A program made the translations under genes and the position numbers. 64,000 nt of DNA from Bordetella ansorpii (lineage in GTDB: Bacteria; Pseudomonadota; Gammaproteobacteria; Burkholderiales; Burkholderiaceae_B). Positions 4,494-62,534 of the stretch are shown one piece after another (within the stretch, counting starts at the first letter, position 1; every line of letters starts with the position of its first letter). The notes beneath the pieces are model-generated. The model saw only the letters and a list, made by a program, of their open reading frames with translations, did no database searches and was not told the origin of the DNA. The stretch lies in assembly GCF_900078705.1 (NCBI RefSeq), contig NZ_FKIF01000006.1, forward strand, positions 868,001-932,000. The letters run 5' to 3'.

Positions 4494-5527
4494 GGCAGTT
4501 CTCCAGGTTGATCAGGGGACACGGAAGAAAGGTCGGACTGCGGCAGCAGCTCCGGGAATGGAGCCTCCAGCGCATCCGCCAGTTGGTAGCCCGAGCCGTC
4601 GAAGCCGACGACCCGAGCGATGCTCTCGATGCGGCGCTTGCGTCCGCGCCCGGCAATGTGGATGACCACGTTGACCGCTTCCGCGATCAGCGCACGGGGC
4701 GGGTTCACCGCCACTTCGAGAATCAGTTGCTCCAGGCGCAGCAGCGCGCCCAGCGCGGAGCCGGCGTGGATCGTGGCGATGCCGCCGGGGTGGCCGGTGC
4801 CCCAGACCTTGATGAGATCCAGTGCCTCGGCGCCGCGCACCTCGCCGACGACCACACGATCCGGGCGCAGGCGCATGGACGAACGCACCAGCTCGGTCAT
4901 GGACACGACGCCCTGGCGCGTGCGCAGCGGTACGTGATCGCGCGCCGCGCATTGCAGCTCCACCGTGTCTTCGAGCACCAGCACGCGGTCGCCCGTGGCG
5001 GCGATTTCGGCCAGCAGCGCATTCGCCAAGGTGGTCTTGCCGGTGCTGGTGCCGCCCGCGATCAGGATGTTCTGGCGCTCGCGCACGGCGCGCACCAGCA
5101 AACCAGCCTGTGCGGCGGTCATCATCCCGTCCTCGATGTAGCGCGACAGCGGGATCACACCAAAGGCACGCTTGCGCAAGGCGAAGGCTGGCCCCGGTGC
5201 AGCGGGCGGCAGGATGCCCTCGAAGCGTTCGCCGGTCTCGGGCAGCTCTGCCGTCAAAAGCGGCTGGCCGCGATGCACCTCGGCGCCGACGTGGGCGGCC
5301 ACGAGACGGATGATGCGTTCGCCATCAGCCTCGGACAGCTCCTCGCCCATCGGGGCGCGGCCCGTGGACAGACGATCCACCCAGAGCGTGCGGTCGGGGT
5401 TGAGCATGATTTCCACCACGTCCGGGTCTTCGAGCGCGGCGGCGATCAGCGGCCCCATGGCCGTGCGTAGCATCTGAATGCGGCGATCCAGCGAGGTGGC
5501 CGTGAAGGAGGAAAGAACGGCGCTCAT
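4490..5527 (-). CDS. trbB: TrbB, conjugation ATPase (VirB11 family)
   Basis: Hexameric traffic ATPase of the conjugation channel, 345 residues. Visible motifs are Walker [11 protein letters not shown] near residues 155-164, the Asp box ([12 protein letters not shown]), Walker B region [15 protein letters not shown] and the His box [16 protein letters not shown], all in VirB11 order. It is the first trb gene; its start overlaps the stop of the upstream CopG-type gene by 4 bp, so traG, copG-like and trb genes appear to be one transcript. Confidence 0.95.
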
Positions 5528-5988
5528 AAGGCACGCTCCTGGGCATCTGCAGCGGCCGCCGCGCCCTCCGATCGCGTCGGATCGGGGTGCAGTTCCTCCA
5601 CCACATCCCGCACCAGGCTGCGCCCGCGCAGCAAATGCCGTCCGAGCTGTTCGACGAACTGCTCGAAGCGGGCCTTGCCCTGGGCGCGAGCGGCGTCCTG
5701 ATGGGCCTCGGGCACGGGCGTGCTCACAGTGAGGAAATAGCGGATGAACAGCGCCAATGTTTCGATGGCAATGTTCTGGTCGCGCTCCAGACGCTCGGCG
5801 TGGCGCGACAGGCGATCCAGTCGCTTGGCAATCGCCGCCTCGCGCTGGTCGGCCGCATCGGGCGACAGCCAGGAGGCCAGGGCCGCCGCGACGATGCTGG
5901 ACTTGGACACGCCCTTCTTGGCGGCCAGTTCATCGAGCCGCTTGCTGTGCTCCGGCTGGATGAACACATTGAGGCGGTGTTGGGTCAT
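5524..5988 (-). CDS. CopG-family ribbon-helix-helix protein
   Basis: A 154-residue protein with an N-terminal ribbon-helix-helix domain (RLNVFIQPEHSKRLDELAAK, then GVSKSSIVAAALASWL), followed by a charged helical region. It is a standard member of Tn4371-type elements between traG and trbB. The family suggests DNA binding, either as a transcriptional regulator of the transfer operon or a relaxosome accessory factor; the sequence does not decide which. It overlaps traG and trbB by 4 bp each. Confidence 0.85.
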   Translation of the reverse strand: MTQHRLNVFIQPEHSKRLDELAAKKGVSKSSIVAAALASWLSPDAADQREAAIAKRLDRLSRHAERLERDQNIAIETLALFIRYFLTVSTPVPEAHQDAARAQGKARFEQFVEQLGRHLLRGRSLVRDVVEELHPDPTRSEGAAAAADAQERAL

Positions 5989-7985
5989 AGGTCGATTCCG
6001 TCGTCAGGGTCAAGGGAAGCCAGCCGGGCCGTGCGCTGCAGGGCCGGGTCGAGCTGGCGAGGAAGGGGAAGCTGCATGTCATCGTCATCGAGCAGCCCGA
6101 GGTCGGCTGCAGGCGCAGCCAGGTCGGGGTCGTAGGCGGCGGCTTCGGAGAGTTCGGGTTGGCGACGCGGGCCGCCGTCGTCAGCGGCAGAGGGGAAGCC
6201 TTCAACGGCTTCGGTTGCAGGCGCCACCGGAACGGGAGGAACCGTCAGCCCGCTCCAGTCGTCGGGCCGTAAGGGAGGCACGTCGGCGTAGCGCCCCGCA
6301 ACGAGTACAGGAGGCGGCAGCACGCGCCGCTGGAAGTTCGCGTCAGAGTAGTAGCGCAGCTTCTTGGCCTTGATCGGCGCGACGCTGGAAACCATCACCA
6401 CCGCCTCATCGGGCGGCAGCTGCATCACCTCGCCCGGCGTGAGCAGCGGGCGGGCGGTTTCTTGTCTCGACACCATTAGGTGCCCCAGCCACGGTGCGAG
6501 TCGATGTCCCGCGTAGTTGCGCTGCGCGCGCAGCTCGGTAGCGGTGCCAAGGGTTTCGGAAATCCGCTTGGCCGTGCGCTCGTCGTTGGTGGCGAACGTC
6601 ACGCGCACATGGCAGTTGTCGAGGATGGAATGGTTCTGGCCGTAGGCTTTGTCGATCTGATTGAGCGACTGCGCGATCAGGAAGCTGCGGATGCCGTAGC
6701 CCGCCATGAAGGCCAGCGCCGTCTCGAAGAAGTCCAGGCGCCCAAGCGCCGGGAATTCATCGAGCATCAGCAACAGCTTGTGACGGCGCTGGATGCCATC
6801 GCTGCCATCGAGTGATTCCGTCAGCCGCCGCCCGATTTGGTTGAGGATCAGGCGGATCAGCGGTTTGGTGCGGCTGATGTCCGAAGGCGGCACCACGAGA
6901 TACAGCGACACGGGATGCTCGGCCGCGATCAGGTCGGCAATGCGCCAGTCGCAGCGCGAGGTGACTTCGGCCACCGTGGGGTCTCGGTACAGGCCGAGGA
7001 ATGACATGGCGGTGCTCAACACGCCGGAACGCTCGTTGTCCGATTTGTTCAGGACTTCACGCGCTGCCGATGCCACCACCAGATGCGGTCCATCGCCGAT
7101 GTGCGGCGTGGTCATCATCCGATGCAGGGTAAGCTCGAAGGGACAGGCCGGGTCGCTGAGGAAGTTGGCGACACCGCGCAGCGTCTTGTCTTCGCCTGCG
7201 TAGAGCACATGCAGGATGGCCCCAACCAGCAGCGCATGCGAGGTCTTCTCCCAATGGTTGCGCCGCTCCAGTGCTCCTTCGGGATCGACCAGAATGTCTG
7301 CGATGTTCTGCACGTCGCGCACTTCGTGCGCGCCGCGCCTCACCTCCAGCAGCGGGTTGTAGGCCGCCGACTTCGCATCGGTCGGGTTGAACAGCAGGCA
7401 GTGCGAGAAGCGCGAGCGCCAGCCAGCGGTGATGCTCCAGTTCTCGCCCTTGATGTCGTGAATGACGGCCGATGCGGGCCAGCTCAACAAGGTGGGCACC
7501 ACTAGGCCCACGCCCTTGCCCGAGCGGGTAGGCGCGAAGGTCAGAACATGCTCCGGGCCTTCGTGCCGCAGGTACTGCTGGCGATGCAGGCCAAGGAATA
7601 CGCCCGCAGACCGGTCAAGACTCGCCTTGTGGATGTCCTCCGCATTGGCCCAGCGCGCCGTGCCGTAGGTCGTGACCAGCTTGGACTGGCGCGAGCGCCA
7701 GATCGACATGCCGACGGCAACCACCACCGCGATCAGGCCGCTGCCTGCGGCAATGGCACCGCCCACGTCGAATACATGCGGCGCGTAGGCGTCGAAGAAG
7801 AACCACCACTCGAACAGGCGCCAGGGGTGATAGACCGGCGTGCCGAGGAAATCGAACCAGGGCGAACCCAGGCGTAGCTGGTAGCCCAGCGCCGCTGCTG
7901 TCCATTGCGTGGCGCTCCATACGCCAGCGATCACGATGCCGAAGACAACGGCAATCTGACCGAACAGCACGTTCGTTCCTTGCAT
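5985..7985 (-). CDS. traG: TraG, type IV coupling protein (VirD4 family)
   Basis: Inner-membrane ATPase that links the relaxosome to the mating channel, 666 residues. The start is MQGTNVLFGQIAVVFG at 7985, preceded by GGGAGG 7 nt upstream; a longer open frame begins at 8036 but has no such ribosome site. Membrane segments are near the N-terminus. Walker A is in FAPTRSGKGVGLVVPTLL (about residue 149) and Walker B is LLMLDEFPALGRL (about 404). It heads a run of 4-bp overlapping genes continuing into trbB-L. Confidence 0.95.
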   Translation of the reverse strand: MQGTNVLFGQIAVVFGIVIAGVWSATQWTAAALGYQLRLGSPWFDFLGTPVYHPWRLFEWWFFFDAYAPHVFDVGGAIAAGSGLIAVVVAVGMSIWRSRQSKLVTTYGTARWANAEDIHKASLDRSAGVFLGLHRQQYLRHEGPEHVLTFAPTRSGKGVGLVVPTLLSWPASAVIHDIKGENWSITAGWRSRFSHCLLFNPTDAKSAAYNPLLEVRRGAHEVRDVQNIADILVDPEGALERRNHWEKTSHALLVGAILHVLYAGEDKTLRGVANFLSDPACPFELTLHRMMTTPHIGDGPHLVVASAAREVLNKSDNERSGVLSTAMSFLGLYRDPTVAEVTSRCDWRIADLIAAEHPVSLYLVVPPSDISRTKPLIRLILNQIGRRLTESLDGSDGIQRRHKLLLMLDEFPALGRLDFFETALAFMAGYGIRSFLIAQSLNQIDKAYGQNHSILDNCHVRVTFATNDERTAKRISETLGTATELRAQRNYAGHRLAPWLGHLMVSRQETARPLLTPGEVMQLPPDEAVVMVSSVAPIKAKKLRYYSDANFQRRVLPPPVLVAGRYADVPPLRPDDWSGLTVPPVPVAPATEAVEGFPSAADDGGPRRQPELSEAAAYDPDLAAPAADLGLLDDDDMQLPLPRQLDPALQRTARLASLDPDDGIDL

Positions 7986-45285: not shown

Positions 45286-45993
45286 TCACGCCGCTGCGCC
45301 CGTCGTGATGAGGCCCTCGACGTGGGCGCGCTGCGCGTCCAGTTCCTGGGCCGTGCCGGACCAGGCGACCTGGCCATGGTCCAGCACGTACTGGCGGTGG
45401 GCCAGCTTCAGGGGCACCTTGAGGTTCTGCTCCACCAGCACGATGCCGGTGCCCTGGCGATGGACTTCGCTGAACACGCGGACCAGTTGGTCCACGATGA
45501 CCGGCGCCAGCCCCTCGGTGGGTTCGTCGAGCAGCAGCATGCGCGGGTTGCCCAGCAGGGCGCGCCCGATCGACAGCATCTGCTGCTCGCCGCCGGAGAG
45601 CTGGTCGCCGCCGAAGTCCAGCCGTTCCCGCAGGCGCGGGAAGGCGTCCAGCACCCGGTCGAGGGTCCAGTGCCCCGGCTGGTGGGCCAGCGCGCCGATC
45701 TTGAGGTTCTCCAGCACCGACAGGTTGGGGAAGATGCGGCGCGTGTCCGGCACCAGCGCCACGCCGAGCTTGGCGATGGCCTCCACGCCCAGGCCCGAAA
45801 TGTCCTGCTCGCCCAGCAGGCGCCGGCCGGCCACCAGGGGCATCAGGCCGACCAGGGCCTTGAGCAGCGTGGTTTTGCCTGCGCCGTTGCGCCCGACGAT
45901 GGCGACGATTTCATGGAAATCGATCCGCACGGAGATTTCTTCCAGCGCCAGGGCCTGGCCGTACCTGACGCTGGCTTTTTCGAGTTCGATCAC
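45286..45993 (-). CDS. ABC transporter ATPase, LivF type
   Basis: 235 residues. Walker A GRNGAGKTT, signature DQLSGGEQQMLSIGRALLGN, Walker B MLLLDEPTEGLAP, switch IVLVEQNLKVPLKLAHRQYV. It overlaps the LivG-type gene by 4 bp and forms the importer with the next four genes upstream. Confidence 0.93.
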   Translation of the reverse strand: MIELEKASVRYGQALALEEISVRIDFHEIVAIVGRNGAGKTTLLKALVGLMPLVAGRRLLGEQDISGLGVEAIAKLGVALVPDTRRIFPNLSVLENLKIGALAHQPGHWTLDRVLDAFPRLRERLDFGGDQLSGGEQQMLSIGRALLGNPRMLLLDEPTEGLAPVIVDQLVRVFSEVHRQGTGIVLVEQNLKVPLKLAHRQYVLDHGQVAWSGTAQELDAQRAHVEGLITTGAAA

Positions 45994-46742
45994 TGCGCGT
46001 CCTCCCCAAGGTAAATCGACCGCACCGCTTCGTTCCTGCGGATGTCCTCGGGGGCGCCGCAGGCGATGACCGAGCCGTTGCTCATGACCACGATTTCGTG
46101 GGACAGCGACATCACCGCATCCATGTTGTGCTCGATCAGCAGCACCGTGCGCCCCTGCGCGGCCTTGCGGATCAGGGCCAGCGCGGCCTGGATCTCGTGG
46201 TGGCCGATGCCCGCCAGCGGTTCGTCCAGCAGCAAAATCCTGGGATCGGGCAGCAGGGTCACGCCCAGTTCCAGCGAGCGCTGCAGGCCGTAGGGCAGCG
46301 TGCCCGCGACGTCGTCGCGGTGGGCCGCCAGCCCCGTCAGCTCCAGGATGGCATCCAGCTGCTCGCGGAACTGCCGGTCGAAGTGGCGGCTCATCCAGAA
46401 GGGCTGGAACCCGGGCCGGCGGGACTGGGCCGCGACCAGCAGGTTCTCGGCCACCGTCATTTCGCCGAAGATCTTGATGATCTGGAAGCTGCGCCCGATG
46501 CCCATGCGGGCCCGTTCGTAGGCGGGGCGCTGGCTGATCTCCCGGCCGCCGCAGTACACCTTGCCCGCATGGCGCATCTGCCGCCCGGCCAGCACGTTCA
46601 GCAGCGTGGTCTTGCCCGCGCCGTTGGGTCCGATCAGGCCGTAGATGCAGCCCTCCAGGAATTCATGGCTGACGTCGTTGACCGCCTTCAGGGCGCCGTA
46701 GCTGACAGTCACGCCCTCGCACCGCAGTGCTGCCTGGCTCAT
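45990..46742 (-). CDS. ABC transporter ATPase, LivG type
   Basis: 250 residues from MSQAALRCEGVTVSYGALKA, overlapping the LivM stop by 4 bp; a longer open frame to 46931 is rejected because it runs into livM. Walker A GPNGAGKTT, signature LPYGLQRSLELGVTLLPDPR, Walker B ILLLDEPLAGI, switch VLLIEHNMDAVMSL. Confidence 0.93.
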   Translation of the reverse strand: MSQAALRCEGVTVSYGALKAVNDVSHEFLEGCIYGLIGPNGAGKTTLLNVLAGRQMRHAGKVYCGGREISQRPAYERARMGIGRSFQIIKIFGEMTVAENLLVAAQSRRPGFQPFWMSRHFDRQFREQLDAILELTGLAAHRDDVAGTLPYGLQRSLELGVTLLPDPRILLLDEPLAGIGHHEIQAALALIRKAAQGRTVLLIEHNMDAVMSLSHEIVVMSNGSVIACGAPEDIRRNEAVRSIYLGEDAQ

Positions 46743-47707
46743 CGCGCACCTCCGCGCCGGTTCTTCTGGTAGGCCGCGAAACCCTGCTCCAGCTCGCCAA
46801 CGATGCCGCGCGGGAAGAAGATGGTTGCAAGGATGAACACCAGGCCCAGCACGCCGTACCAGTACTCGGTCCAGCTGCTCAGCCATTCCTTGAGCACCTC
46901 GAAGGCGATCACGCCGACGGTGGCGCCCCACAGCGAGCCGGAGCCGCCCAGCAGGGTCATGATGATCACGTCCCCCGAGGTGGTCCAGTGCAGCATCTGC
47001 GGGTTCATGTACATCAGCAGCGAGGCCAGCAGCGCCCCCGCCAGGCCGCTCAGGCCGCCCGAGATCACGAAGGTGATCTGCTTGTAGCGGTTGACGTTGA
47101 AGCCCAGTTGGTCGGCGCGGGTCTCGTTGCCACGGATCGCCGCGATCACGCGGCCGAACGGCGAACTGCGCAGCGAGATCACCGCCAGCATGACCAGGGC
47201 ATACACGCCCAGCACGAACCAGTAGTAGTGGACGGGGTCGTAGAAGTCGATGCCCAGGAAGCCCGGGCGCTCCACGCCCGAGATGCCGTCCGACCCGCCA
47301 GTGAAGCCGCGCAGCTTGCTGTCCGCCAGGATGAAGATCAGCTGGGACAGCGCCAGGGTCACCAGCGCGAAGAAGATGCCGGACACCCGCAGCGCGAAGA
47401 AGCTGAACAGCAGGGCGAACGCAGCCCCCACGATGATGGCCAGGCCCACGCCGGCGGAGAAAGGCAGCCCGTATTTCTGCGTCGCCAGGGCCACGGCGTA
47501 GCCGCCCACCCCGAGGAAGGTGGCGTGCCCGAAGGACACCATGCCCAAAGCGCCGAACACGAAGTCGAAGCCGATGGCGAAGATCGCCCAGATGGCCGCC
47601 AGGGTGACCAGCTGGATCAGCGCTTCACTCGGGTTGAGGAAGGGCAGCAGGATGCCGGCCGCGGCCAGCAGCAGGCCGAAGCAGATGTCGAACAGGGAGA
47701 GTTTCAT
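46739..47707 (-). CDS. ABC transporter permease, LivM type
   Basis: 322-residue membrane protein. WAIFAIGFDFVFGALGMVSF, GHATFLGVGGYAVALATQKY and MTLLGGSGSLWGATVGVIAF are LivM features. The start overlaps the LivH stop by 4 bp. In contrast to cargo 1, both permeases here precede the ATPases. Confidence 0.93.
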   Translation of the reverse strand: MKLSLFDICFGLLLAAAGILLPFLNPSEALIQLVTLAAIWAIFAIGFDFVFGALGMVSFGHATFLGVGGYAVALATQKYGLPFSAGVGLAIIVGAAFALLFSFFALRVSGIFFALVTLALSQLIFILADSKLRGFTGGSDGISGVERPGFLGIDFYDPVHYYWFVLGVYALVMLAVISLRSSPFGRVIAAIRGNETRADQLGFNVNRYKQITFVISGGLSGLAGALLASLLMYMNPQMLHWTTSGDVIIMTLLGGSGSLWGATVGVIAFEVLKEWLSSWTEYWYGVLGLVFILATIFFPRGIVGELEQGFAAYQKNRRGGAR

Positions 47708-48561
47708 GCCGTCCTCGCCGCGCGGTAGAACAAGCCCTGCGGGCGCGTCAAGAGGGTGCCGATCAGCAGCACGAAGGTCATGATGTCCACCCAGCCGGGC
47801 AGGTACACGTAGCCCAGGGCACGCACCATGCCGATCAGCATGGACGCCGCGATCGCCCCCCGGATGTTCCCCAGCCCACCCAGGATCACGACGATGAAGC
47901 AGTCGATGATGGTGTTGGTCGCCATACCCAGCTCGATGGGGAACAGCGGCGCCGCGATCGCGCCCGCCAGGCCCGACAGGCCACAGCCCGTGGCGAAGAC
48001 CGCCATGCGGATCGCGCCCACTGGCAGGCCCAGGATGCGCACCATTTCCGCGTCGCTGCTGGCGGCCCGCACGAGCATGCCGAAAGTGCTCTTCTCAAGC
48101 ACCAAGTACAGGCCCGCCGAGACGAGAGCGCCGAACCCGATCACGAACAGCCGGTACATCGGGATCGTGCTGCCCAGCATGTCCACGGTGCCGTTCCACA
48201 GCGGCGGAATCGCCACCTCCTGGTAGCCGGGGCCCCAGACGAAGCGCACCACGTCGCTCAGGATCAGGATCAGGCCGAAGGTCAGGATCAGCTGGTAGAA
48301 GTGCGGGCGCTCGTAGAGCGGTCGCAGCGCCAGCTTCTCGATCACCGCGCCCGCCAGCGCGGTGAAGAACGTAGCGGCCAGCACGCCCATGAGGAACGAG
48401 CCCGTGCGCCGCCCCGTTTCATACGAGACGTAGGCGCCCAACATATAGATGGCACCGTGGGCAAAATTGATCACACCCAGCATGCCGAAGATGAGCGTCA
48501 GGCCCGCCGCCAGCAAAAACAGCAGCATGCCCAGGCTCAAGCCGATCACGATAGTTGACAT
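47704..48561 (-). CDS. ABC transporter permease, LivH type
   Basis: 285-residue membrane protein, starting MSTIVIGLSLGMLLFLLAAG. LIFGMLGVINFAHGAIYMLG, AYVSYETGRR and VVILGGLGNIRGAIAASMLI are LivH features. It lies 48 bp after the binding-protein gene. Confidence 0.93.
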   Translation of the reverse strand: MSTIVIGLSLGMLLFLLAAGLTLIFGMLGVINFAHGAIYMLGAYVSYETGRRTGSFLMGVLAATFFTALAGAVIEKLALRPLYERPHFYQLILTFGLILILSDVVRFVWGPGYQEVAIPPLWNGTVDMLGSTIPMYRLFVIGFGALVSAGLYLVLEKSTFGMLVRAASSDAEMVRILGLPVGAIRMAVFATGCGLSGLAGAIAAPLFPIELGMATNTIIDCFIVVILGGLGNIRGAIAASMLIGMVRALGYVYLPGWVDIMTFVLLIGTLLTRPQGLFYRAARTA

Positions 48562-48609: not shown

Positions 48610-49806
48610 TCAGTTCTTGCAGGCCTCGAACAGCTTCTCTTCGGGAAAGACCTTGGTGATCTTCATCGTCAGCGCGGGGGCTGGCGGGGTGCCCTGCACC
48701 ACCTCGCCCCAGAAGCCCGGCTGCAGGGCCTGGTGGTCGCAGGCACGCATGGTCTTCTTGCCTTCCACGGAGTTCTCGCGGACGCTGGCGGCGAAGGCGT
48801 CCACCCACTTCTCCTTGTCCCAGGAGCCGGTCTTTTCCACCGTGTCCAGCCACCACGCCATGCCGTCGTAGGCCTCCCCGGCCGTCATGCTGGGGAAGAT
48901 GCCGAACTTCTTGCGGTAGGCCTCGACGAACTTGCGGTTGGCGGCGGTGTCGATGGTGTGGTCGTAGCGCAGGCCGGAATTGACGCCCAGCGAGGCCGGC
49001 CCCACGGCCGCCGCCATGGTTTCATCGGCGGCCACGGGTCCGAAAAGCACCTTGCTCTTGCCCAGGTTCACCTGGCCGGCCTGCTTGAGCAAAGTAACCA
49101 CGTCCGAGCCCGTCAGCATCAGCAGCACGCCGTCGGCGTCGGACTTGGCGATCTTGTCCACGATGGACGAATAGTCGCGGTTGCCCAGGGGCGGGAAGTC
49201 CTCACCCACGATCTGGATACCGTTGGGGCCGGTCTGCTGCTTGATCCACTCGTAGCCGTCACGGGTGGCCTGGTAGTCGGCGGTAACGATGTAGATCTTC
49301 TTGAGCTTCCTGTCCTGCATGTACGCCAGCGCCATGCGGTTTTCCATGCCCAGGTTGTTCGATGTACGGAAGGTGTAGCGGGAGCCGCCGGGCACGGTGA
49401 TCTTGTCGTCCGCCGAGATGGTGACGAGGTGGGGCACCTTGCGCTGCTTGGCCAGGTTCATGACCGCCAGCGTGGAGGCGGAGCTGAGCGCACCGAAGAT
49501 CATGTGCGAGCCCTCGGAGATCAGCTTGGTGGCCTTCTGCACGGCGGGCTGGGGCTTGGTTTCGTCGTCCTCCCAGGTGACTTCGATGGGCACGCCCATC
49601 ACCTTGCCGCCGCGCTCCTCGACGGCGATCTGCACGCCCCGGCGCATGTCCTCGCCCAGCAGCCCGTAGGGACCGGAGAGCGACAGCACGCCGCCGATCT
49701 TGAACTTCTCGGGCTTGGACTGGGCATGCCCGTTGGACACCAGCCCCATGGCCGCCGCCGCGGCGACCACCATGCCCTTTTTAAACCATTTCGCAACGCT
49801 AACCAT
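48610..49806 (-). CDS. branched-chain-type ABC transporter substrate-binding protein
   Basis: 398 residues. The start MVSVAKWFKKGMVVAAAAAM at 49806 has AGGAG 7 nt upstream and yields a signal peptide cleaved near NGHAQ. EKFKIGGVLSLSGPYGLLGE and YIVTADYQATRDGYEWIKQQ are typical of LivK-like ABC binding proteins. Sequence differs clearly from the cargo 1 protein, so the two importers probably take different compounds. Confidence 0.93.
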   Translation of the reverse strand: MVSVAKWFKKGMVVAAAAAMGLVSNGHAQSKPEKFKIGGVLSLSGPYGLLGEDMRRGVQIAVEERGGKVMGVPIEVTWEDDETKPQPAVQKATKLISEGSHMIFGALSSASTLAVMNLAKQRKVPHLVTISADDKITVPGGSRYTFRTSNNLGMENRMALAYMQDRKLKKIYIVTADYQATRDGYEWIKQQTGPNGIQIVGEDFPPLGNRDYSSIVDKIAKSDADGVLLMLTGSDVVTLLKQAGQVNLGKSKVLFGPVAADETMAAAVGPASLGVNSGLRYDHTIDTAANRKFVEAYRKKFGIFPSMTAGEAYDGMAWWLDTVEKTGSWDKEKWVDAFAASVRENSVEGKKTMRACDHQALQPGFWGEVVQGTPPAPALTMKITKVFPEEKLFEACKN

Positions 49807-49843
49807 GATGTGTCTCCTGTCGTTGATTTGCATGTATTCCAGG

Positions 49844-50653
49844 TCAGCCGATGCGGGCGGAAATACCGCCATCGACCATGATTTCGGCGGACGTGACGTA
49901 CTTGGATTCGTCACTCGCCAGCCACAGGGCCGTGGTGGCCACGTCCCATGCGTCTCCCATGTGGCCCATGGGGCACTGCCGGTCCCGCTTGGCCAGCATT
50001 TCCTCCTGCGACGCTTCCCGGTACCCGTCCGCCAGCGACAGCACGGGCTGTCGGACCATGGGCGTATTCATCAGGCCCGGCATCAGCACGTTCGAGCGGA
50101 TGCCCCGCTTGGCGTATTCCAGGGCGACGCTGCGGGAGAAGCCGAGCACCGCGGCCTTCGAGGCGCTGTAGGACACGTAGGCCACGCCGCTGTCGCGCAC
50201 GCCGGCTACCGAGCCGATGTTGACGATGCTCCCCCGGCCTTTCCGGAGCATGGAGGGGATCGCATGCTTGCAGGTCAGGAACATGGAGGTGAGGTTGATG
50301 TCGAAGACCAGGCGCCAGTCCTCCAGGCTCTGCTCGACGACCCCACCCAGGCGGGCGGTGCCGACGTTGTTCACCAGGATGTCGATGTCGCCATAGGTGG
50401 TCACGCAATCCTGGACCAGCGCTTCCACCGCGCCGGGGTCGGTCACGTCGCACTGGGCCACGCTCATGGCCCCGCCCTCTTCCCGCACGATCGACTCGGT
50501 CTCGCGCGCTGCGTCCAGGTGGATGTCGCAGCCATAGACCTTCGCCCCTTCGCGGGCGAACAACACGGCCATGGCCTTGCCATTGCCCCAGCCGGGCCCC
50601 GATGATCCGCAACCGGTGACCAGGGCCACCTTGCCTTCCAGGCGTTTCACCAT
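49844..50653 (-). CDS. short-chain dehydrogenase/reductase
   Basis: 269 residues from MVKRLEGKVALVTGCGSSGP at 50653; the frame continues upstream into the thiolase gene, out of its frame, and is not used. The cofactor loop is longer than usual (TGCGSSGPGWGNGKA). ILVNNVGTARLGG, Ser in NIGSVAGVRDSGVAYV and YSASKAAVLG complete the active site. It lies 11 bp after the thiolase, whose substrate it may generate. Confidence 0.9.
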   Translation of the reverse strand: MVKRLEGKVALVTGCGSSGPGWGNGKAMAVLFAREGAKVYGCDIHLDAARETESIVREEGGAMSVAQCDVTDPGAVEALVQDCVTTYGDIDILVNNVGTARLGGVVEQSLEDWRLVFDINLTSMFLTCKHAIPSMLRKGRGSIVNIGSVAGVRDSGVAYVSYSASKAAVLGFSRSVALEYAKRGIRSNVLMPGLMNTPMVRQPVLSLADGYREASQEEMLAKRDRQCPMGHMGDAWDVATTALWLASDESKYVTSAEIMVDGGISARIG

Positions 50654-50664
50654 GATCTCGTCCC

Positions 50665-51852
50665 TCAGTCCGCGCGCCCGTACAGGGTCACCACGGTGGC
50701 GCCGCCCAGGCCCGCGTTGTGCTGCAAGGCCAGGCGTGCACCCTCCACTTGGCGTGCTTCGGCGCTGCCGCGCAGTTGGTGGGTCAGCTCGTAGCACTGC
50801 GCCAAGCCGGTCGCGCCCAGCGGATGGCCCTTGGACAGCAGCCCGCCCGAGGGGTTGACGACGACCGCGCCGCCATAGGTGTTGCTGTCCGACTCGACGA
50901 AGGCCCGGCCCTCGCCGACGGCGCAGAAACCCAGGCCCTCGTAGCTGAGCAGCTCGTTCTGCGCAAAGCAGTCGTGCAGCTCGCACACGTCGATGTCCTG
51001 CGGTCCCACGCCTGCCGCCTCGTAGACCTGGCGGGCGGCCTCGCGCGTCATGTCGAAGCCCACAACGGAAATCGCGGACTTGTCGGCGAACGCGCCGGGG
51101 CGGTCGGACACCAGCGACTGCGCCAACACCTGCACGTTGGCGGAGAGGCCCATCTTCTGGGCGAACTTCTTGCTCACGAAGACGGCGGCAGCGGCGCCGC
51201 AGGTCGGCGGGCAGGCCATCAGGCGGGTCATGGCGCCGGGCACCAGGGGCGAGCTGGCCAGCACCTCCTCCACCGTCACCTCCTTGCGGAACAGCGCCAG
51301 CGGATTGCGCGCAGCGTGGCGGCTGGCCTTGGCGCGGATCCTGGCGAAGGTGTCCAGCGGGGTGCCGTACCGCTCCATGTGCTCGCGGCCCGCCGCGCCG
51401 AAGTAGCGGATCGCCATGGGCAGCTCGGGGTGGCCGAAGATCTCGTCCATGACCCCGTTGAAGTGGTCGAGCGGATCGGGCCGGTCGTCCCAGTACGCCC
51501 TCAGGGCGCCGGCGGGCATCTGTTCGAAACCCACCGCCAGCGCGCAGTCCGCCGAGCCGTTGGCCACGGCCTTGCGCGCCATGTACAGGGCCGTGGAGCC
51601 GGAGGAGCAGTTGTTGTTGACGTTGATCACCGGCACCCCGGTCATGCCGACCTCGTAGACCGCGCGCTGGCCGCTGGCCGAGTCGCCATAGACGTAGCCC
51701 GCATAGACGTCCTGCACGTCGGAGTAGGTGAGGCCCGCGTCCTGCAGCGCCTCGCGGATCGCCTGCGCAGCCATTTCCGGGTACGGCAGGTTGTCGCCGG
51801 GTTTCTTGAAAGGGGTCATGCCGACACCGGCAACGAGAACGGGCTCTTGCAT
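50665..51852 (-). CDS. SCP-x-type thiolase
   Basis: 395 residues. Nucleophile Cys in INVNNNCSSGSTALYMARKA, catalytic segments VCELHDCFAQNELLSYEGLG and NPSGGLLSKGHPLGATGLAQ, and the C-terminal ALQHNAGLGGATVVTLYGRA. The layout (HDCF in place of NEAF) marks the sterol carrier protein X group, often used on branched or steroid side-chain ketoacyl-CoA. The related but truncated gene at 30179 ends cargo 1. Confidence 0.92.
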   Translation of the reverse strand: MQEPVLVAGVGMTPFKKPGDNLPYPEMAAQAIREALQDAGLTYSDVQDVYAGYVYGDSASGQRAVYEVGMTGVPVINVNNNCSSGSTALYMARKAVANGSADCALAVGFEQMPAGALRAYWDDRPDPLDHFNGVMDEIFGHPELPMAIRYFGAAGREHMERYGTPLDTFARIRAKASRHAARNPLALFRKEVTVEEVLASSPLVPGAMTRLMACPPTCGAAAAVFVSKKFAQKMGLSANVQVLAQSLVSDRPGAFADKSAISVVGFDMTREAARQVYEAAGVGPQDIDVCELHDCFAQNELLSYEGLGFCAVGEGRAFVESDSNTYGGAVVVNPSGGLLSKGHPLGATGLAQCYELTHQLRGSAEARQVEGARLALQHNAGLGGATVVTLYGRAD

Positions 51853-51887: not shown

Positions 51888-53453
51888 TCAGGAAACCATG
51901 CGCTCCTGCGCGTGCCAATACTTCTTGCGGACTTCTTTCTTCAAGACCTTGCCCACCGCACTGCGCGGCAGCTGCGCGACGATCTCGACCTCCTTGGGCG
52001 CCTTGATGCTGCCCAGGCGGTCCTTGACGAACTGGATGAGCGCCTGCGGCTCCACGGACTGGCCCGGGCGCAGCTCGATGACCGCCCTGACGGCCTCGCC
52101 CCACTTGTCGTCGGGCACGCCGATGACGGCGCAGTCCTTCACGGCCGGGTGGGCCATGACGGCGGCCTCGACCTCGGACGAGAAGACGTTGAAGCCGCCC
52201 GTGACGATCATGTCCTTCTTGCGGTCAACGATGAACAGGAAGCCCTGCTCGTCGAAATAGCCCACGTCGCCCGTGCAGTGCCAGCCGTGGCGCTGCACTT
52301 CAGCCGTGGCCTCGGGGTTCTTGTAGTAGCCCTCGGTCACGATGTCGCCCTGCGCGACGATCTCGCCCACGGCCCCCGGCTGGGTGAGCAGGCTGCCGTC
52401 GTCGTCCATGACCGCCACCCGCGTGAAGGGGAAGCGGCGCCCCGCGCTCAGCAGGCGCTGGCGGGGCGCCACCTGCCCGTCGATGAAATGGTCCTCGACC
52501 CGCAGCACGGAGATCGCGCCAGGCACTTCCGCCTGGCCATAGATCTGCAGCATGACGGGGCCGAACACATCGATGGCCTCCGCCAGTTTGTCGGGCGACA
52601 TGGGTGCGGCGCCGTACATGAGGTAGCGCAGCGCGGAAAAGTCGAAATCGCGGACGTTGGGCTGCGCCAGTAGCGTATAGATGACTGTTGGGGGCAGGAA
52701 CAGCATGTTGACCCGCTCCTGCTCGATCACCTTGAGCAGGTTCTGCGGATCAATCCCGTCCATCAGGACAACGCGGCCACCGCGCGCCATGAAGGGCAGC
52801 GACACCAGCCCCGCCGTGTGGGTGATAGGTGCCGCCGCCAGCACGGTCATGCAGTCGGTAATGTTCATGGCCGACATATGGTTGGCCATGGTCGCCGTCA
52901 GGTTGCGGTGGCTGAGCATGACGCCCTTCGAGCGCCCCGTGGTGCCACCGGTACCCATGATCATGGCCAGCCCCCGCGGCTGCAGCGGCGCTGCGTACAT
53001 CTCGGGCGGCTGGCCTTGGATCAACCGAGCAATCGACAGATCCGCCCCATCGGCCTCTTCCAGAGCTATGTAGTGACGAATGCGGGGGACCTTGCCGCGG
53101 ATCTCGGCGACCTGGCTGATATAGCGGGCCTGATAGAAAAGGACGTCGCAGTCCATGTCCTGCAGGAACTCGATGTTGGTCTCCACGCTGTTGCGCGCAT
53201 TAACGGGCAGCCAGACACCCCCTCCGCGCAACACCCCCAGCAGCGCCACGAAAGCAGCCCCGGCATTGCCGCTCAGCACTGCGCCGTGAAAACCAGGTGC
53301 GAGTCCCAAGGCCTGTAGCCCCCGTGCGATCTGGCACGTGAGCGCTCCCGCTTGCGCATAGGTGACGGCCGGGGTATCACGCCCGCAGTCCACGAAACAA
53401 GGCGCATCCGGATGGCTGGTAGCACCAGCATCGAAATAGTCCAGCAGATTCAT
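51888..53453 (-). CDS. acyl-CoA synthetase (AMP-forming), first gene of cargo 2 operon
   Basis: 521 residues. Motifs: MIMGTGGTTGRSKGVMLSHR, LQIYGQAEVPGAISVLR (Gln-Ala-Glu in place of the usual Thr-Glu), HCTGDVGYFDEQGFLFIVDR, KKDMIVTGGFNVFSSEVEAA and Lys in LPRSAVGKVLKKEVR. Resembles fatty-acid/aryl-CoA ligases. It is transcribed from the predicted promoter at 53611-53640, under the TetR operators. Confidence 0.92.
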   Translation of the reverse strand: MNLLDYFDAGATSHPDAPCFVDCGRDTPAVTYAQAGALTCQIARGLQALGLAPGFHGAVLSGNAGAAFVALLGVLRGGGVWLPVNARNSVETNIEFLQDMDCDVLFYQARYISQVAEIRGKVPRIRHYIALEEADGADLSIARLIQGQPPEMYAAPLQPRGLAMIMGTGGTTGRSKGVMLSHRNLTATMANHMSAMNITDCMTVLAAAPITHTAGLVSLPFMARGGRVVLMDGIDPQNLLKVIEQERVNMLFLPPTVIYTLLAQPNVRDFDFSALRYLMYGAAPMSPDKLAEAIDVFGPVMLQIYGQAEVPGAISVLRVEDHFIDGQVAPRQRLLSAGRRFPFTRVAVMDDDGSLLTQPGAVGEIVAQGDIVTEGYYKNPEATAEVQRHGWHCTGDVGYFDEQGFLFIVDRKKDMIVTGGFNVFSSEVEAAVMAHPAVKDCAVIGVPDDKWGEAVRAVIELRPGQSVEPQALIQFVKDRLGSIKAPKEVEIVAQLPRSAVGKVLKKEVRKKYWHAQERMVS

Positions 53454-53584: not shown

Positions 53585-53654
53585 GGTACCATTTCTTTTA
53601 AATTGGTACCATTAGACGCGCTCGATTGGTACCAAGTCAATTGACTTGGTACCA
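53585..53654. promoter_or_regulatory. TetR operator region with four GGTACC sites and promoter
   Basis: GGTACC occurs at 53585, 53605, 53628 and 53648 (intervals 20, 23 and 20 bp). The last two are arms of a perfect 28-bp palindrome (53627-53654, centre between 53640 and 53641); the first two form a near-palindrome. On the minus strand TTGACT (complement of 53635-53640), 18 bp, TCTAAT (complement of 53611-53616) is a good promoter for the ligase operon and is overlapped by the palindrome. The region separates the ligase gene from the divergent TetR gene, its likely ligand. Confidence 0.85.
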
Positions 53655-53676: not shown

Positions 53677-54372
53677 ATGAAAAAGAAGCTCACAGACGAA
53701 GAGTTCTTCGATGCGCTGACCCATCTGCTCCTGACGGAGGGGGTCAAAGGCCTGACCGTGGGTGAAATCGCCGCACGGCTGCACTGCTCGCGGCGGCGCC
53801 TCTACGACATTGCGCAGACGAAGGAAGAGATCTTCTGCGCCGTCGTGCAACGCTTTTTCGATAGCCTCCTGAGACAGGGCGAAGCACTGATCCACCGTGA
53901 ACAGGATTTGACGACAGCACTCGCTGCCTACCTGGACGTAGGCGTCCAGGCGGCTAGTCGCATCGGTGTCCAGTTCCTGAAGGACGTCGAAGATTCAGCA
54001 GTTGCCAGAGGTATCTTCGATCACTACCAGCAGGTCCGTACCCTTAGGCTATCCCAACTCATCGACGATGGGGTACACCAGGGTGTCTTCGCACCCTGCC
54101 ATGGGCTGGTCGTATCCGAACTCATTCTGGGAGCCGCACTAAGGCTGCGCCGCCCGGCATTCCTTGCCCAGGCCAATCTCACCCTTGAGGACGCATTCCA
54201 AGAGTTCTACCGGGTGCTGCTAGGTGGGCTACTGATCGACTCAGCCACACCAAAAGCGGCTCGTAGGGGCGTACGGGCAAGCCGAGCCACTTCGCAGCGC
54301 ACCGTCACAAAGAAAGATACAGACCCTGATGAAGTCGGCACGATGCTAATTGCCGCCTGGAATCGCGGTTAG
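53677..54372 (+). CDS. TetR-family transcriptional regulator
   Basis: 231 residues from MKKKLTDEEFFDALTHLLLT at 53677, with AGGAG upstream; in-frame TTG codons within the operators are rejected. The HTH is VKGLTVGEIAARLHCSRRRL, YDIAQTKEEIFCAVVQRFF. The C-terminal effector domain is followed by a basic tail (KAARRGVRASRATSQRTVTK). It is divergent from the 12-gene operon and adjacent to the palindromic sites, so it is the probable local repressor, with a CoA ester or free acid as possible inducer. Confidence 0.9.
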   Translation: MKKKLTDEEFFDALTHLLLTEGVKGLTVGEIAARLHCSRRRLYDIAQTKEEIFCAVVQRFFDSLLRQGEALIHREQDLTTALAAYLDVGVQAASRIGVQFLKDVEDSAVARGIFDHYQQVRTLRLSQLIDDGVHQGVFAPCHGLVVSELILGAALRLRRPAFLAQANLTLEDAFQEFYRVLLGGLLIDSATPKAARRGVRASRATSQRTVTKKDTDPDEVGTMLIAAWNRG

Positions 54373-57894: not shown

Positions 57895-58024
57895 GGCAAG
57901 CGAAGCGCGCAGGCCCGAAGCTGGAAGCCGGGCCGGAGGCGTCAGCCGACCGGAGGGAGGGGACGATGGAAGCCCGTCAGGGGCGAAACCCCGCAGGGGG
58001 TTCGATGCGCAGCACGACAGCGCG
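57895..58024 (+). repeat. about 130-bp direct repeat, copy A
   Basis: Highly similar, without large gaps, to 59624-59754 on the same strand. Both begin with the 18-mer GGCAAGCGAAGCGCGCAG (one change in copy B), pass GCCGGGCCGGAGGCGTCAGC and GGGGCGAAACCCCGCAGGGG, and end TTCGATGCGCAGCACGACAG. Several short stems are possible (GGGG-CGAAA-CCCC). It ends about 100 bp before the small rightward gene at 58121. Confidence 0.75.
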
Positions 58025-58120
58025 ACCGGCCATCTCCCAGGTGGCCGGGGACGTCCACATGACTTCAACGAAATCCCCTTGGACTGCTACTCGCCCAGCC
58101 ATCGGCACAATGGCAATGAC

Positions 58121-59623: not shown

Positions 59624-59754
59624 GGCAAGCGCAGCGCGCAGGCCCGGATCAGCGAGCCGGGCCGGAGGCGTCAGCCGAGTGAAGCGAGGGAACGATGAAA
59701 GCCCGAATGGGGCGAAACCCCGCAGGGGATTCGATGCGCAGCACGACAGCGCGA
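59624..59754 (+). repeat. about 130-bp direct repeat, copy B
   Basis: Partner of 57895-58024. It fills most of the 366-bp gap between the Cys-rich gene and the nuclease gene. No open frame inside is convincing. Confidence 0.75.
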
Positions 59755-59792
59755 CGACGGCACGCCGGGACGCCCGAATGCGAGGAACAGAA

Positions 59793-62436: not shown

Positions 62437-62534
62437 TCTGGCCTTCCCTTCAAGGCCTATAGTCAAAAAATTCGCTTTTAGATCAGCGAGTTGGCGCTGG
62501 AAAAATATCCCGGCGAGTCCCATGGATTCCCGCT

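Follow-up and report, generated by a model that had tools for sequence, protein, structure and literature searches.

A paired GGTACC-type element as the very probable operator of a TetR-family regulator at an acyl-CoA ligase promoter in Bordetella ansorpii

Introduction

The window analyzed here, a stretch of 64,000 nucleotides from Bordetella ansorpii (contig NZ_FKIF01000006.1, positions 868,001 to 932,000), contains a 223-bp intergenic region in which the hexamer GGTACC occurs four times, between the gene for a TetR-fold regulator and an operon on the opposite strand that opens with an acyl-CoA ligase gene. Do these hexamers form a control element, and if so, which protein would read them, what is the unit that is read, and which genes would be governed? 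The explanation that best accounts for the whole of the evidence, and that we hold to be very probable, is that the array serves as the operator of the adjacent TetR-family repressor, shutting the ligase operon until a CoA thioester releases TetR. The genes concerned are the following.

53677..54372, plus strand: TetR-fold regulator, 231 aa, presumed repressor (TetR_N 21.5 bits; model pLDDT 81; TetR-family structure matches)
51888..53453, minus strand: acyl-CoA ligase, 521 aa, first operon gene (AMP-binding Pfam matches; ATG at 53453)
50665..51852, minus strand: thiolase / lipid-transfer protein (PRK08256 model above cutoff)
49844..50593, minus strand: short-chain dehydrogenase (domain match; start not settled)
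48610..49812, minus strand: periplasmic binding protein of a branched-chain-amino-acid type ABC transporter (Peripla_BP_6; start not settled)
45990..48561, minus strand: ABC transporter block (BPD_transp_2 and ABC_tran)
47704-48561 and 46739-47707, minus strand: ABC permeases (BPD_transp_2)
45990-46931, minus strand: ABC ATPase (ABC_tran)

From gene order and strand, we infer that the ABC transporter genes are co-transcribed with the ligase gene.

Results

The regulator

With its N-terminal HTH and an all-helical predicted fold, the window protein is assigned to the TetR family. Its TetR_N match falls under the Pfam cutoff of 24 bits, and its predicted structure matches TetR-family structures over ~180 residues, the best query TM being 0.63 and the best Z 15.9, a value to be read against the Z of about 13 that helical bundles alone can score. 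Fold neighbours include FadR, PfmR, AibR, KstR2, QacR and MbdR, and likeness of fold to FadR, MbdR and the others is no proof of function. The start of tetR was taken as the ATG at 53677; a TTG upstream at 53626, at the operator edge, is an alternative in the list of open reading frames. Identity to the window TetR ranges from 34 to 56% in 18 aligned relatives and reaches 81% and 100% in genomes G581 and G607, respectively, and a CSxRRxY signature in the recognition region is invariant in 19 aligned rows.

The four-site array

Direct reading of the sequence places GGTACC at 53585, 53605, 53628 and 53648, such that the array consists of two pairs, each spaced 20 bp, with 23 bp between the pairs. 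These coordinates and spacings reproduce those of a first-pass annotation of the locus, as does the exact 28-bp palindrome at 53627-53654. The promoter whose −35 the annotation placed beneath the palindrome, a TTGACT −35 and a TCTAAT −10 with an 18-bp spacer, is likewise read on the minus strand (53640-53635 and 53616-53611), and the outer pair does lie just past the −10, since the site at 53605-53610 abuts TCTAAT.

53585..53610, no strand: putative outer operator unit, GGTACC-N14-GGTACC (abuts the −10; covers the inferred start and first transcribed bases)
53611..53616, minus strand: −10 TCTAAT, ATTAGA on the plus strand (kept in locus L047; TCTAAT also in L040 and L048)
53627..53654, no strand: putative inner operator unit, 28-bp palindrome around GGTACC-N14-GGTACC (contains the −35)
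53635..53640, minus strand: −35 TTGACT, AGTCAA on the plus strand (read from the sequence; TTGAC in the same place in relatives)

The centres of the two pairs are 43 bp apart, about four helical turns, and 23 bp separate the end of the array from the ATG of tetR.

Could such an arrangement arise by chance? GGTACC is the recognition site of KpnI, and the hexamer by itself is not out of the ordinary in the window (9 copies versus 4.86 expected, with at least 9 in 6 of 100 shuffles). Pairs at 20 bp number two in the window versus none in 100 window shuffles, and when the intergenic region of 223 bp was dinucleotide-shuffled 20,000 times, neither four GGTACC nor any 20-bp pair appeared. The palindrome is the longest perfect one of the window at 28 bp, versus 14-22 bp for the longest per shuffle in 20 whole-window dinucleotide shuffles. 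Array and palindrome thus exceed chance expectation. Clustering of KpnI-like hexamers by chance is ruled out by these shuffles and by the recurrence of 20-bp pairs in relatives, which is described below.

The conserved unit

A scan of GTDB genome contigs with the TetR protein gave 21 loci, among them loci of Achromobacter, Advenella, Cupriavidus, Sheuella and Verticiella. Across the 211,246 bp of these loci there are 28 RGTACY pairs at 20 bp, spread over 19 of the 21 loci, while spacings of 14-19, 24-30 and 34-37 bp are not represented and 21 bp is found twice; the remaining counts, one at 22 bp, five at 23 bp and four at 31-33 bp, are between-pair distances. Both 21-bp pairs sit in L040, the most distant relative (34% identity), as units at 4603-4629 and 5940-5966, from which it may be that unit spacing follows the protein. 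When the window and loci L046, L047, L048, L049 and L050 are added and L040 is counted, the element is present in 26 of 27 loci, all of which were reached via the TetR protein or lie in the window. The one locus without it, L029 (C. necator UYPR2.512), has a TetR relative and no element in its 10.6-kb stretch. At 5616-5849 of L029 the TetR relative adjoins only a 78-residue piece of ligase similarity; this is possibly a decayed locus. The missing element of L029 and the 21-bp spacing of L040 both count against the operator reading.

A second pair is present in 12 loci, with L046 left out of this and the other unit comparisons as an identical copy. The two pairs are 23 bp apart in the window, L047 and five Achromobacter loci, 22 bp apart in L020, and 31-33 bp apart in three Advenella loci and L039. 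The centres of doubled pairs are therefore 42-43 or 51-53 bp apart, equivalent to 4.0-4.1 or 4.9-5.05 turns if one turn takes 10.5 bp. In Achromobacter pulmonis (L028, 3652-5001), the four-site array lies ~1.3 kb from tetR, unlike in the other Achromobacter loci, and the extra DNA there looks like an insertion.

What, then, is the unit that is conserved? Across 25 inner pairs (24 with TTGAC, and two of the 25 from L048) and 12 outer pairs, the hexamer ends differ from GGTACC in 25 cases on the partner-facing side and in none on the outer side (sign test 6e-8, computed on related loci). The invariance of the GTAC core is partly built in, since the pattern demanded GTAC (GTGC being allowed in the left site); the test of inner against outer ends is symmetric in the search pattern. 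The Achromobacter and Advenella loci are near relatives and do not count as independent. Deviation on the partner-facing side alone defines the unit as an inverted repeat, GGTACY-N14-RGTACC, and comparison of the loci shows this to be the candidate recognition unit, with half-site centres 20 bp apart, placed once or twice ahead of the target operon. For this reason the four single GGTACC operators of the first-pass annotation give way to pairs.

The comparison with L047, whose operon is 84.8% identical, separates the palindrome from the unit. In L047 the palindrome is broken, and the four sites, the −35 and TCTAAT all persist; the bases between the sites diverge while the sites and the promoter stay. 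The perfect palindrome is thereby ruled out as the functional unit. The element accompanies TetR in relatives; the perfect palindrome is a local feature. The same divergence bears on whether the repeats merely reflect shared descent or a restriction-like GGTACC motif with no regulatory role, for which the unremarkable frequency of the single hexamer in the window would speak. A motif of that kind would not be expected to keep its sites and promoter while the intervening bases change, to stay with the target gene where tetR is kilobases off, or to occur twice in L048 and in L040 ahead of different genes, and we give this explanation next to no credence.

The promoter

Within the unfiltered list, GTCAA, the complement of TTGAC, lies within one pair in 17 of 19 relative loci. 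The two others are L020 and L038; the inner pair of the latter contains GGTGCC and was detected with a looser pattern. The corresponding count in the unit list, 24 of 25, is partly built in, as that list was filtered for GTCAA or TGTCA and L020 was added by hand. Downstream of TTGAC, agreement with TATAAT averages 3.62 of 6 positions when the spacer is 17 bp and does not exceed 2.79 for any other spacer from 8 to 39 (24 loci). These comparisons show a promoter of sigma-70 type that faces the target and has its −35 within one unit; TTGAC is followed after 17-18 bp by a weak −10, for example TACATT or TCTAAT. A strict promoter scan of the window returned no promoter at the array, because it accepts a −10 only with A as the second base and TCTAAT has C there; the promoter call draws instead on conservation across relatives. 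In the window, the ligase transcript would start near 53603-53604, giving a leader of ~150 nt, and the distance from −35 to ATG is 187 nt versus 61-89 nt in most relatives, a point against the favoured reading. On the plus strand, no promoter for tetR was identifiable by eye.

Is GTCAA read by the polymerase or by the repressor? It is found in none of the 12 outer pairs, and L020 retains its array (20-22-20) without TTGAC. These observations make GTCAA part of the promoter and leave the hexamers as the contacts of the repressor, which are separable from the promoter. GTCAA is thereby ruled out as the main repressor contact; given its near-invariance in inner pairs, a secondary contact is possible.

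Co-occurrence of element and regulator

The pair searches began from TetR-bearing loci; genome scans with the GTCAA pattern did not. The regulator was detected in 15 of 268 genomes of the same family (protein search, E at most 1e-15) and in 5 of 399 genomes of the order (profile search, E at most 1e-25), the own genome being counted in both; at most 10 (family) or 8 (order) candidates were scored per genome, and weaker relatives may escape. The pattern GGTACY-N2-GTCAA-N7-RGTACC matched 14 of the 268 family genomes, all within the 15 TetR-positive ones, and the TetR-positive genome that had no match (G045) has an inner pair with GGTGCC. In the order set it matched 5 of 399, exactly the five TetR-positive genomes. 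As the sets overlap by 13 genomes, 654 distinct genomes are covered, of which 19 have TetR and 18 have the promoter-bearing element, all 18 inside the 19 (hypergeometric 3e-34, with independence overstated because the genomes are related). The reversed control pattern gave one match in the order set and none in the family set. That every one of the 18 element-bearing genomes carries TetR supports the earlier proposal that the adjacent TetR would use these sites as its operator.

Without GTCAA, the looser pattern GGTACY-N14-RGTACC gives 22 matches in 13 TetR-positive genomes, all at most 3.4 kb from tetR, versus 35 for its reversed control. In the own genome, RGTACY-N14-RGTACY gives 3 true matches versus 9 for the reversed control. 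Match counts alone prove nothing, and it is position near tetR that argues for function. A wider regulon in the own genome was considered and rejected, as the sole third match is weak and the control gave 9; judged by sequence, the array is the only convincing site there.

The target

Which gene does the element govern? A ligase homologue is the first long gene past the promoter in 20 of 25 entries (window counted), and this, together with the conserved TTGAC and −10, supports the earlier placement of the sites over the promoter of the ligase ("cargo") operon. The five other entries belong to L028, L020, L048 (two elements) and L040. L028 falls outside the 20 through automatic choice of the open reading frame, though a ligase is present there. 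The L020 array (1587-1654; TetR 55% identical) precedes the gene for a TRAP transporter DctQ subunit, with no ligase. L048 has separate single units at 7666 and 9095, ahead of periplasmic-binding-protein and thiolase genes, such that genes of the window's operon type are divided between two controlled transcripts. In L040, one 21-bp unit with GTCAA precedes a gene of the tannase/feruloyl-esterase family (Pfam) and the second, at 5940-5966, is followed by thiolase, dehydrogenase and ABC-ATPase matches. The non-ligase targets thus appear to be mostly still gene kinds found in the window's operon.

The array stops 23 bp short of the tetR ATG in the window, and it could be argued from this that its chief role is autoregulation of tetR and not control of the ligase operon. 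However, ten loci (Cupriavidus, Sheuella, Verticiella and others) have 2.2-8.6 kb between the element and the tetR start, and in all ten the first long gene beyond the element is a ligase homologue. An element so far from tetR and directly ahead of the ligase belongs to the target; moreover, the conserved promoter faces the target, which leaves chief autoregulation of tetR a quite improbable account.

Mobility of the locus

Genome G607, from another family of the order, is 99.8-100% identical to the window over 1-62437 (also seen in L046 and L052-L055). This identity points to the recent transfer of a large element, with contamination of one assembly a possible explanation, and the ligase operon is probably mobile. 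The identity ends near 62437, perhaps an element boundary. To the right of tetR there is a 132-bp direct repeat (57895-58026 and 59624-59755, 88% identity). A blastn search of PLSDB found no plasmid copies of the intergenic region.

Discussion

How would the array act as a switch? In the model that we favour, TetR without inducer would cover the −35 from the inner unit and the −10 edge and the start from the outer unit, with both units on the same helical face, and the bound protein would block RNA polymerase. An organic acid imported by the ABC transporter would be activated by leaky expression of the ligase, and the resulting CoA thioester would bind TetR, release it and so induce the operon. 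In the window, where the array lies between both genes, tetR is likely to be autorepressed as well. Both polymerase block and release by a CoA thioester are inferred by analogy with MbdR of Azoarcus sp. CIB, described in the available part of PMC4424350 as a TetR repressor of 3-methylbenzoate metabolism whose inducer, 3-methylbenzoyl-CoA, is the CoA product of the ligase. An alternative hypothesis is that TetR activates the ligase promoter; sequence by itself shows no direction of effect, and some TetR proteins activate, the accessible text of PMC3511530 giving AtrA as an example. The sites, however, overlap the −35, the spacer and the start region, and a protein bound at these positions should obstruct polymerase; relatives with a single unit retain it over the −35, so that only a slight chance attaches to activation.

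At 3.4 angstrom per base, 20 bp corresponds to ~68 angstrom. In TetR-family complexes, as far as the available text of PMC4150764 goes, recognition helices are separated by 31-38 angstrom and two dimers occupy operators of 22-32 bp, and the comparison of this head spacing with half-sites 20 bp apart suggests, by analogy, two dimers per pair. Each 26-bp unit would then probably take two dimers in a QacR-like manner, up to four in all. A competing arrangement within the same model has each pair bridged by one TetR dimer with heads two turns apart, making the array two dimers, as assumed in the first-pass annotation, which proposed that their cooperation would give a tight switch. The degeneracy on the inner side does mark each pair as one dyad unit, and no motif common to the N14 of the 12 outer pairs is seen by eye, but both the known helix distances and the known dimer occupancy run counter to such a span, and we regard a single bridging dimer as unlikely. 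A broader reading, offered tentatively and with doubt, is that a TetR subfamily marked by CSxRRxY reads half-sites separated by two full turns of the helix. Two units stacked over one promoter in integral-turn register would then let the −35 and the −10 edge be read jointly, by a phase-locked array of dimers or by an unusually wide dimer, and the whole switch would travel on a mobile element between bacterial families.

In the 13 regulator-bearing genomes checked, the looser address is found nowhere else. If the favoured model of TetR repression holds, the locus offers as one set a repressor, the precise DNA address that it reads and the operon under its control. Such a set would make a clean, portable switch and a route to the acid degraded by the operon. 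The doubled, phased form here and the single form in relatives offer a natural case in which to compare TetR repression by one unit and by two.

The type of switch is already known, and for the address GGTACY-N14-RGTACC no published description was found. The search for a GGTACC TetR operator covered titles and the starts of abstracts in mostly open-access literature, where identity with the KpnI site makes a motif search noisy; one GGTACC match, in the available part of PMC9430723, is a primer. As in the tet system (PMC3511530, available part), two palindromic operators lie between divergent regulator and target, although the tet operators are 15 bp long and bound by dimeric TetR. The dimer-of-dimers complexes of QacR, CprB, CgmR and Ms6564 have operators of 22-32 bp in the text at hand of PMC4150764, similar to the 26-28-bp unit here, but two units stand in tandem in the present case. 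FadP and LiuQ are, according to the portion available of PMC5343134, TetR regulators predicted in betaproteobacteria to govern the catabolism of fatty and branched-chain acids; class, family and acyl-CoA catabolism are shared, whereas FadP regulons average 17.9 genes per genome and a single locus is seen here. The closest comparison is with MbdR, which is no more than a structural neighbour of the window TetR (Z 13.4, 16% identity in the structure alignment). As far as the available text of PMC4424350 goes, MbdR is likewise a TetR repressor from a betaproteobacterium; the operon it controls also encodes an ABC transporter and an acid-CoA ligase, and the palindromic operator of MbdR, with a TAC...GTA half-site core, covers −35, −10 and start as well. 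The MbdR operator there, ATAC-N10-GTAT (18 bp, half-site spacing 6 bp shorter), differs from GGTACY-N14-RGTACC, such that the window TetR lacks the operator expected of an MbdR orthologue, and it is the two phased units that further set the present switch apart from MbdR.
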